From a virus, in the IMG/VR virus record IMGVR_UViG_3300045995_001308, positions 1-21,972 of that record: a stretch of DNA of 21,972 nucleotides; one strand, written 5' to 3'. The translations under genes were made by a program, and so were the position numbers. Positions 3,955 to 12,029 of this stretch are shown here, piece by piece; the stretch's first letter is position 1, and each line of letters starts with the position of its first letter. The notes beneath the pieces are model-generated. The model made no database searches, had not been told where the DNA came from, and saw only the letters and a program-made list of their open reading frames with translations.

Positions 3955-4530
3955 ATGTCATATCTGATAGTTGACGGAATTATCGCGGCCCAGACGCCGG
4001 AGATTGAGGGACCATTTAAAAAAATGCTCGGGGATGTGCAGCAAGTTATAGAAATCGGCTATCTCCATGGCGGTTTCAGCCTCTGGTTGCACAGGAATAA
4101 AAGTCCAGGCTGCGCCCTCGTTTGTTACGACATCACTGGAGAGAATTTGCTGGTTTTCCCTGAGCAGTATATTGATTTCAGAATCGGCGATTGCTTCGCG
4201 CCGGACATAGCCAACGAAATCATTGATCTTCTCCGGCAGCCGCGGAGAACTCTTTTATTATGCGACGGCGGCAACAAAGAAGAAGAATTCAATTTTTATT
4301 GCCCATATTTGAAGCCGGGAGATATTATCATGATGCATGACTATGCTGATAACAATGAAGATTTCGAGAATATAAAGGCGCGCTTAGACTGGCCATCCGG
4401 GCCGGAATCTTTTTATGACAATATCCAGGAAAAGGCCTCAATCTATAACCTTGAAAAGCATCAATATGGTGAAATGAAGTCTGTTCTTTGGGGCTCTTTT
4501 ATCAAGTCGGGATTTGAGGCCCTCCCATGA
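3955..4530 (+). CDS. SAM-dependent methyltransferase-like protein (cephalosporin-hydroxylase/CmcI-like fold)
   Basis: A 191-residue Rossmann-type protein. Residues 31-45 (VIEIGYLHGGFSLWL) form the SAM-binding motif I, CYDI (57-60) ends strand 2 with the acidic residue, GDCF (78-81) follows, and LLCDGGNK (101-108) with LKPGDIIMMHDY (119-130) forms the active-site edge, where CmcI-like enzymes bind metal. Such proteins often accompany glycosyltransferases and methylate sugars or amino-sugar precursors. A Shine-Dalgarno (AGGGGG) precedes the ATG. The gene ends in a four-base overlap with the next glycosyltransferase, so the two are probably co-translated. Substrate is unknown. Confidence 0.75.
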   Translation: MSYLIVDGIIAAQTPEIEGPFKKMLGDVQQVIEIGYLHGGFSLWLHRNKSPGCALVCYDITGENLLVFPEQYIDFRIGDCFAPDIANEIIDLLRQPRRTLLLCDGGNKEEEFNFYCPYLKPGDIIMMHDYADNNEDFENIKARLDWPSGPESFYDNIQEKASIYNLEKHQYGEMKSVLWGSFIKSGFEALP

Positions 4531-5513
4531 ACCTGCTTTTTGCCTCATCCGACCCGTCCGGATGCGGGTTTTATCGGAGCCAACTGCCCGCGCTATTTCT
4601 GGGAAAATATTATGAGGTCATGCATTTCGATGGGACTCAAGCCGAGATCCCGCTCAAGGATGATACCGTGACAATGCTGCAAAGGGCCATCAGCCCCCTG
4701 TTTGAAAAATTCATTGATATTGCGAAGATTAAGGGCCAGAAGGTTATATATGACTTGGACGATAACCTCTGGGAAGTTGGATTCCATAACCCGGCCAAGG
4801 CGGCCTATACTCCGGAGGTGTTGAGGTTGCTGGAGCACATCTTATCAAAAGTCGATGCAGTAACCGTCTCAACGGAGCCCTTGAAACGGTATGTTTCCCG
4901 ATTCCATAACAATATACATATCATCCCTAATTTCATTCCTTTCAGTCCCCCTCCGGAAAAGGCCCGGTCGTGGGTCCGGATCGGATGGGCCGGTTCCAAT
5001 ACCCACGCCAACGACTTCGATGTGCAGTTGTTTAAGGCACTGCAGCGGCTACATGATGAAGAGGCCATAGATGTAGTTTTCTTTGGCTGGCGGCCGCCGC
5101 TTTTATCCCATACCGCCGCATATGTCCCATTTGTCCCATCGTCTGAATTCTATGCAAAGCTGCAAGAGCTCAATTTCACCATCGGCCTGATCCCCTGCGC
5201 CCCCACCATATTCAATGCCAGCAAGAGCAACGTGAAGTATCTGGAATACTCCATGCTCGGCGCCGTATCCGTGGCCTCGGACGTGGTCACCTACAACACC
5301 ACAATAAAGCACGGCATCAACGGGATGCTGGTGAGCAAGCCGAAGCACTGGTATCCGGTATTGAAAGAACTTTGCGGTTCTCCGGAGTTGAGAAAAACGC
5401 TTGCAGACAACGCTCATGCGTTTGTCAGGGATAATTACACGTTTGAACATAATGCGGATCTGCTCCTGGAGAAATACCGGGCGCTTTTTCGAAGCATCGG
5501 AGCGGAAATATGA
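4527..5513 (+). CDS. Glycosyltransferase, GT-B fold (GT4-like)
   Basis: A 328-residue cytosolic sugar transferase with the two-domain GT-B look. The N-terminal domain begins with MNLLFASSDPSGCGFYRSQL and has YDLDDNLWE (75-83) and VDAVTVSTEPL (109-119). The linker and second domain start at RIGWAGSNTHANDFD (151-165). The nucleotide-sugar site is in SNVKYLEYSMLGAVSVAS (234-251), the region matching the E-x7-E motif of GT4 enzymes. It overlaps both neighbours by four bases (ATGA), so it is part of a tight three-gene unit. It may modify virion proteins, cell envelope glycans or DNA; nothing in the sequence decides which. Confidence 0.85.
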   Translation: MNLLFASSDPSGCGFYRSQLPALFLGKYYEVMHFDGTQAEIPLKDDTVTMLQRAISPLFEKFIDIAKIKGQKVIYDLDDNLWEVGFHNPAKAAYTPEVLRLLEHILSKVDAVTVSTEPLKRYVSRFHNNIHIIPNFIPFSPPPEKARSWVRIGWAGSNTHANDFDVQLFKALQRLHDEEAIDVVFFGWRPPLLSHTAAYVPFVPSSEFYAKLQELNFTIGLIPCAPTIFNASKSNVKYLEYSMLGAVSVASDVVTYNTTIKHGINGMLVSKPKHWYPVLKELCGSPELRKTLADNAHAFVRDNYTFEHNADLLLEKYRALFRSIGAEI

Positions 5514-6265
5514 TCGGCATCGGAATCACAACCAGAAACCGTCCACGAATGCTTGAGGTTTGTCTTGAACACTTCATTTGTTTTACGGTTCGGACGGATA
5601 TCAAAATCGTAGTTATCAACGATTTCTCAGATCCTCAATATACCGCGGAGTATGAACAAATCCGCAAAGAGTTCCCTTTTGTCAGGTTCATAGACAACCC
5701 GGAGCACTCCGGAATCGCCAAATCAAAGAATATATGCCTCACCGCGTTATGTAGGGGCGCATGGCCATGCGCCCATGTTTTCCTCTTTGATGATGACTGC
5801 TGGCCGAAAAAGAGCGGCTGGATGGGATATTACATCGAAACAGCGCGTGCGGCTGGCGTCGAGCACCTGCTATGGATGATCGACGGGGTAGAAGATCATC
5901 TCCACATGAAAGCCAAGGGGGACCTGGTCAACGAATTCACCAACTGCATGGGGTGCGTGCAGTTCTTCACCCGCCATGCAGTTGACGTTCTGCAAGGTTT
6001 TAACGAAGAATTCAAGATTTACGGCTATGAACACGCCGAATTATCCCGCAGAGCCATACAGGCAGGGTTGATCGGCGCATACACCGGCTACATAGCCCCG
6101 GCCAGTTGCGGGGATTATATATACACCATGGACATGAATCACACCCATCTGCATGAACCTATCCCGATGGGTCATGAATTGACATTGACGGAATCTATCC
6201 CGTTTGAAGAAAAGATGCGGTATGCCGAAATGAACAGCAAAATCTTCAATTCTTTGCAAAAATAA
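5510..6265 (+). CDS. Glycosyltransferase family 2-like protein (GT-A fold), with repeat-derived insert
   Basis: A 251-residue protein beginning MIGIGITTRNRPRMLEVCLEH, typical of GT2 enzymes, with VVINDFSD (34-41), GIAKSKNICL (68-77) and the metal-binding acidic motif FLFDDDCWP (91-99). The later HAELSRRAIQAG region is the usual catalytic/acceptor segment (general family knowledge). Residues 81-88 (CRGAWPCA) are encoded by a palindromic repeat (5751-5777) sitting just before the DDD motif. That insert looks like an addition relative to the normal spacing. The frame remains open, so the enzyme may still fold. It overlaps the previous gene by four bases. Confidence 0.85.
   Translation: MIGIGITTRNRPRMLEVCLEHFICFTVRTDIKIVVINDFSDPQYTAEYEQIRKEFPFVRFIDNPEHSGIAKSKNICLTALCRGAWPCAHVFLFDDDCWPKKSGWMGYYIETARAAGVEHLLWMIDGVEDHLHMKAKGDLVNEFTNCMGCVQFFTRHAVDVLQGFNEEFKIYGYEHAELSRRAIQAGLIGAYTGYIAPASCGDYIYTMDMNHTHLHEPIPMGHELTLTESIPFEEKMRYAEMNSKIFNSLQK
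5751..5777 (+). repeat. Palindromic repeat inside the GT2 coding frame
   Basis: The left end GTAGGGGC matches the intergenic palindrome at 12002. It contains a perfect 20-bp inverted repeat, GGGCGCATGG (5755-5764) and CCATGCGCCC (5765-5774). The right end lacks the final CTAC of the full element. It is translated as RGAWPC within the glycosyltransferase. Confidence 0.75.
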
Positions 6266-6283
6266 ACGGAAAAGGGGTGGCAA

Positions 6284-6604
6284 ATGGAGATCAGTCAAAC
6301 GAAAAAAAAAGCGGATGAGAGGCAAGTTAGGGTAACGAATCAGGAAATAGCGCAGGTAAAGCGAGACCACATCGAGCGAAATCTCTGTTATTCCCTGCGT
6401 GAAGCGGGGGCGATGTTCGGTAAAGGCGAAAAATGGGCACTCGAGCGCGTGAAGGATGGCGAATTTGTTGCTGTGGACGATCGCGTAAAACAGGAAAAAA
6501 ATGGTCATGGGTTGATTCTTTCCCAGGGAATTAGGGTGACTGCAACGTCAATTGAAATATTCCGCCAAAAATATGAAATTGACGCAGAAAAATTGGCCGG
6601 ATAA
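6284..6604 (+). CDS. Small HTH/excisionase-like DNA-binding protein
   Basis: A 106-residue protein. Residues about 33-62 (LCYSLREAGAMFGKGEKWALERVKDGEFVA) look like a helix-turn-helix of the excisionase/MerR type, where a Leu-Arg-Glu-Ala start and a Gly-containing turn precede a recognition helix. The end (RVTATSIEIFRQKY) resembles the residues that close such domains. The first 30 residues are basic. It is the last gene of the transferase cassette, after an 18-base gap, and lies just before a terminator and a pair of 9-bp direct repeats that it might bind. The function as a DNA-binding protein is likely, the role is not known. Confidence 0.6.
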   Translation: MEISQTKKKADERQVRVTNQEIAQVKRDHIERNLCYSLREAGAMFGKGEKWALERVKDGEFVAVDDRVKQEKNGHGLILSQGIRVTATSIEIFRQKYEIDAEKLAG

Positions 6605-12001: not shown

Positions 12002-12029
12002 GTAGGGGCAATTCATGAATTGCCCCTAC
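12002..12029 (+). repeat. Perfect 28-bp palindrome after the capsid gene
   Basis: Left arm GTAGGGGCAATTCA (12002-12015) is the exact reverse complement of TGAATTGCCCCTAC (12016-12029). It has no T-run after it, so it is a palindromic repeat rather than a classic terminator. A related element with the same GTAGGGGC end lies inside the GT2 gene at 5751. Confidence 0.8.

Follow-up and report, generated by a model that had tools for sequence, protein, structure and literature searches.

The window, that is, the whole stretch of DNA analysed here, is a 21,972-bp IMG/VR virus record. Between its large terminase and portal genes lies a cargo block (3955-6604) encoding an FtsJ-like methyltransferase, GT4-like and GT2-like glycosyltransferases, and a small ORF. 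The GT2-like ORF (hereafter GT) matched two Pfam families above cut-off, PF00535 Glycos_transf_2 (3.7e-9) and PF02709 Glyco_transf_7C (2.8e-6), as well as PHROG 2456, glycosyltransferase (8e-40). This ORF is intact, and a palindromic element starting at 5751 is read in frame within it. A second palindrome, at 12002, is intergenic, 5 bp past the stop codon of the major capsid protein gene.

Table 1 Features of the two palindromic elements and of the gene that carries one of them.
Feature	Position	Strand	Basis
GT2-type glycosyltransferase ORF, 251 aa, carrying the element	5510..6265	+	Pfam, PHROG
Codons C81-P86 (CRGAWP), residues in excess of homologues, which have two residues there	5750..5767	+	Alignments
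GTAG foot tetranucleotide of the REP	5751..5754	+	Sequence
Perfect 20-bp palindrome GGGCGCATGGCCATGCGCCC, the REP hairpin	5755..5774	+	Palindrome scan, RNA fold
Codons of FLFDDD, strand and catalytic acidic motif, just 3' of the insert loop	5780..5797	+	Alignment (invariant), model (strand 89-94)
Second REP, double-foot GTAG-(20-bp hairpin)-CTAC, subtype AATTCATGAATT	12002..12029	+	Palindrome scan

From position 5751 the window reads GTAG-GGGCGCATGGCCATGCGCCC-ATGT, so the 20-bp inverted repeat reported in an earlier note on this DNA is real and perfect. The 12002 element is a perfect 28-bp palindrome, GTAGGGGCAATTCATGAATTGCCCCTAC. No other perfect palindrome in the whole window reaches 20 bp; a first-order Markov simulation predicts 0.02 of that length or longer per window. 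Both elements have 4-nt loops. The 5751 hairpin folds as RNA with an 8-bp stem and a GGCC loop at -15.1 kcal/mol. The palindrome is identical on both strands and contains TAG in one frame only, so two of the three frames stay open. The note had assigned both copies to one family on the basis of the inverted repeat and its end. Their common start, GTAGGGGC, is indeed a family signature; the exact 24-mer of which it is part at 5751 recurs in at least 120 stretches of bacterial genomes (see below). The right end GCCCCTAC, also attributed to the 5751 copy, is not there: that copy ends in GCCC-ATGT and has a single foot, with GTAG on the 5' side and no CTAC on the 3' side. The two copies share a superfamily but differ in hairpin subtype, and to that extent the assignment holds. 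In the nearest relative of the virus (L212, capsid 77% identical), the next ATG lies 2 bp past the capsid stop codon and the hairpin is absent.

A G+C-rich hairpin, one copy of which sits after a capsid gene, might simply be an intrinsic terminator or have some other ordinary regulatory role. We rejected this reading, to which we attach practically no probability, because the 5751 copy lies within an intact ORF and no T run follows either copy; an Rfam search matched no family.

We then asked what the element contributes to the glycosyltransferase. In viral-contig and phage homologues the relevant stretch is KNxCLxxL-xx-C[DE][YH]x-FLFDDD, and in the window GT it is KNICLTAL-CRGAWP-CAHV-FLFDDD. 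The spacing from KN to the FLF-type motif is 12 residues in 11 of the 18 distinct homologue spacings scored and 14 in six of them, compared with 16 in the window. Because cysteine is nearly invariant in the C87 column of an alignment of 23 sequences, and H89-V90 are homologous as well, only C81-P86 count as inserted. They stand in for two residues, giving a net gain of four (12 nt) relative to homologues with the 12-residue spacing, or two relative to the 14-residue class. The note's estimate of about eight added residues (81-88) was therefore too high. Its placing of the element upstream of FLFDDD with the frame unbroken was correct, and CRGAWP-like residues without the repeat, which would have made the palindrome a chance occurrence, were found in none of the GT homologues aligned. 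The closest of the homologues found are ~30-41% identical, the best reaching ~41%, and no exact empty site was found among them.

In an AlphaFold2 model of the protein (mean pLDDT 94.2, pTM 0.92), residues 82-88 form the loop that joins helix 69-81 to strand 89-94, and this strand leads into the DDD motif. The insert is thus modelled in a surface loop of the enzyme, which answers a question that the note had raised. As the predicted fold and the invariant residues are intact, the GT with its insert is likely a working protein.

C87 and H89 are family residues, however, and the right arm of the palindrome could therefore be native. Template switching at a quasi-palindrome might then have copied this C-A-H arm, inverted, into the adjacent codons with no mobile element involved, and the net insert of 12 nt is about the length of one arm. 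Against this, the product is letter-identical, GTAG foot included, to the 24-mer that unrelated genomes carry in at least 120 stretches, and a local inverted duplication would yield neither the foot nor the 24-mer. We consider template switching very improbable and rejected it on the grounds of this identity.

The same palindrome is also in frame in other protein genes. As a 28-mer it is read as VGAHGHAPL in CarA (L105), in a Mu-like phage protease ORF (L004) and, at an identical place, in two guanylate cyclase genes (L070 and L047). A variant form of the palindrome is in frame in an Eco57I-type methylase (L098), and the RGAWPCA frame used in the window GT is also used in a polyketide synthase ORF (L035). 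In an Ignavibacteriae MAG (L050, 5526-5589), the coding sequence of a phage portal protein domain contains a dimer of two inverted REPs, read in frame. To judge from these sequences, REP-encoded protein segments recur. A palindrome that makes protein, which the note had called unusual, is found in several unrelated genes here, and intragenic REPs have been published (PMC3733652, PMC6006769).

The carA gene offers a second measurable case. The nine residues of L105 stand in place of two in ten relatives (75-81% identity), a net gain of seven residues or 21 nt. In CarA and in the GT, the two comparable cases, the insert replaced some target bases. The carA gene of a relative (L467) carries a different hairpin subtype, GTAGAGGCGAATAATCATTCGCCTCTAC, at the place of the L105 insertion; either repeated insertion or exchange of subtypes in place could have put two REP subtypes there.

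The element belongs to a large family. GTDB genomes from many phyla carry the exact 24-mer at 5751, GTAGGGGCGCATGGCCATGCGCCC (at least 120 stretches), and include Chloroflexota, Cyanobacteria, Acidobacteria, Nitrospirae, Spirochaetia, Firmicutes, Latescibacterota, Omnitrophica and Geobacteraceae, among others. Within these loci, GTAGGGGC opens a hairpin at 232 of 273 unique sites, and at 49 of the 90 sites without the exact core used for selection, compared with 0-22% for 15 other 8-mers; since the loci were picked by the element itself, these counts are biased; the viral core statistics and the independent transposase sample given below are not subject to this bias in the same way. Whole-genome counts gave tens to hundreds of GTAGGGGC...GCCC hairpins with differing interiors in most 24-mer genomes, frequently as inverted pairs. 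On viral contigs, 28-bp relatives with a double foot are common: at least 119 stretches match GTAGGGGC-N12-GCCCCTAC, with 124 unique sites. This search fixed only the outer 16 bases and left pairing in the core free; the core was nonetheless perfectly self-complementary at 73 of the 124 sites, and each of the six core pairs was complementary in 70-94% of copies. By this comparison, foot and stem are conserved and the core varies in a paired manner. A full-text literature search for GTAGGGGC returned unrelated primer matches only. Six MAG contigs (L021, L032, L040, L048, L061 and L062) start a few bases from the palindrome, and assemblies may break at such repeats.

Among cyanobacteria, an empty-site comparison showed that related genomes mostly share their copies at orthologous positions. 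A single site with presence/absence variation had a 40-bp indel with a 9-bp direct repeat, which is too little to argue for target duplication. A hairpin 3' of groEL (L268, 16486-16513; orthologues in L275-L278) sits at the orthologous position in several species, and its stem changes are compensatory, suggesting that this hairpin is kept as an RNA element or through palindrome-keeping repair. Compensated intergenic copies of this kind, together with the stability of the 5751 hairpin, could indicate that the window element is itself maintained by selection, either because its RNA hairpin controls the mRNA or because the added loop is useful to the enzyme. Yet the local fold at 5751 is no better than that of shuffled sequences (z -0.55), GT homologues function without the insert, and the many unrelated genes with insertions speak against a gene-specific role. 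We regard selection as improbable.

We also looked for the enzyme that mobilises the family. The best Pfam Y1_Tnp hits were discarded as cognate mobilisers: none of 30 had a nearby hairpin, and they proved to belong to other Y1 families. A distinct clade was reached instead by way of L017, where a Y1 transposase ORF contains the exact window element, read in the frame of the transposase. The best NCBIfam match of this clade is REP-associated tyrosine transposase (RAYT), with four relatives scoring 52.6-74 bits, below the equivalog cut-off of 80. In a first sample of clade relatives (43 kb scanned), a GTAGGG[GA]C hairpin lay within 600 bp in 19 of 26 cases and inside the CDS in 12 of 26, against a background of 11 such hairpins per 400 kb of cyanobacterial DNA. 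An independent sample was drawn from 148 genomes of the phylum to which the Geobacteraceae genome belongs, with loci selected by transposase similarity alone. Here, hairpins were found within 600 bp at 27 of 30 loci and inside the gene at 21 of 30. These loci (49.6 kb) contained 64 elements; control 8-mers were found at 0-2 of 30 loci.

The cognate genes also carry the very elements seen in the window. The exact window element lies inside or beside RAYT genes in three genomes (G007, G015 and G002), with a flanking cognate RAYT seen, for example, at loci L017/L432, L436 and L454, and the 12002 subtype AATTCATGAATT is both inside and beside a RAYT gene in G010. In-gene REP copies come after the HUH strand and before the tyrosine helix, in what the model shows as a low-confidence, ill-defined loop. 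Across the 30 loci of the single-phylum sample (L478-L507), 21 transposase genes have an in-frame GTAGGGGC REP or an inverted REP pair right after the HUH strand. An in-frame REP in its own transposase gene seems to be the rule in that clade.

We therefore think it highly probable that the palindrome at 5751 is a REP (repetitive extragenic palindrome) of the GTAG superfamily, of the long or double-foot kind, that was placed in the GT gene by a host RAYT of the subclass-2.4 type (see below) and is tolerated in a loop. The window contig carries no RAYT gene; the enzyme would have been encoded by a present or past bacterial host and would have acted in trans, recognising the GTAG foot and hairpin as single-stranded DNA. 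It would have placed a REP copy in the glycosyltransferase gene with the loss of a few target bases, and the net gain of 12 nt would have kept the reading frame. Target loss or later trimming is assumed here because the net insert is shorter than the element (24-28 nt). The copy could then persist thanks to a tolerant loop between the helix and the DDD strand and to a palindrome that is free of stops in two of three frames; only events that preserve the frame and fall in loops would survive. What we infer from the features above is that a RAYT catalysed this insertion, when the event took place and that it was neutral for the enzyme.

The REP could have entered the gene in a bacterium or in the phage. 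Searches for a host through relatives of the terminase, capsid and portal proteins returned viral contigs only, or one of 395 genomes (39% identity). When the methyltransferase, GT4-like and GT2-like genes were compared by tblastn with the terminase and capsid relatives (L208-L237), none was found, and L212 carries other small ORFs in the position of the cargo block. Because L208-L212 have no GT homologue and L212 has these other ORFs, the cargo block is probably a late acquisition. This would agree with entry of the REP while the GT was still a bacterial chromosomal gene, the phage acquiring gene and repeat together later, and REPs are abundant in many bacterial chromosomes. But phages and prophages carry many such REPs too, which makes entry in the phage equally possible. 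We regard prior entry in a bacterial chromosome as a serious possibility, though not the one we would favour.

The window provides an example of a RAYT-type REP that has entered a phage metabolic gene and is read as protein. The analysis also links the common but little-named GTAGGGGC hairpins of metagenomes to a known transposase subclass. The peptides VGAHGHAPL, VGAIHELPL and RGAWPCA can be read in annotation as REP footprints, and the CarA, portal and cyclase copies are ready cases in which to study how proteins gain loops from short DNA parasites. Temperate phages might, further, be vectors that move REPs between bacterial lineages, sometimes inside protein genes. We hold this to be rather unlikely; if true, it could account for identical 24-bp REPs in distant phyla and could bring REPs into new hosts in which a compatible RAYT is already present.

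How does the element compare with known systems? GTAG-tagged REPs, their RAYTs and in-frame intragenic copies are known from Di Nocera et al. 2013 (PMC3733652), in which most REPs are extragenic and intragenic copies form a minority. As characterised there, these REPs share with the window elements a palindrome of 20-40 bp, a short loop, GTAG at one end, dimers and in-frame copies; the comparison with the 24 consensus families defined in that study was made on these general features. One window copy is intergenic (12002) and one intragenic (5751), and the many copies expected of such REPs were found in the other 24-mer genomes. The note's claim that the family was spreading in this genome goes further than a 22-kb virus contig can bear out. 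The sections of PMC3733652 consulted make no mention of a phage metabolic gene as a REP carrier. Rickettsia palindromic elements (RPE) are likewise palindromes in frame in protein genes, but RPE-4 and RPE-6, according to PMC3733652, have a CGTC tag instead of GTAG and no transposase linkage, and RPE-1 is longer.

The closest match is TnpAREP subclass 2.4 (Quentin et al. 2018, PMC6006769), which has long canonical REPs whose stem base consists of three G-C pairs, 'double foot' REPs of the form GT[AG]G ... C[TC]AC, and REPs inside the transposase gene, between HuH and Y, that leave the frame undisturbed. The window elements share the GTAG foot, the three G-C stem-base pairs and, in the 12002 copy, the double-foot form with CTAC; their cognate transposase genes are likewise flanked by the same REP and contain it in frame between HuH and Y. 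The 12002 copy corresponds to the GTAG/CTAC double-foot type, and the 5751 copy (GTAG ... ATGT) to the canonical long REP with a single foot, which belongs to this subclass too. All observed features fit this assignment, which is made on shared features rather than protein phylogeny. The differences are that the 5751 copy is without a 3' foot and that its carrier is a phage glycosyltransferase gene and not a transposase gene. In-frame REPs, including those in transposase genes, were already described in 2013 and 2018; what the present case adds is a phage metabolic gene as their carrier.
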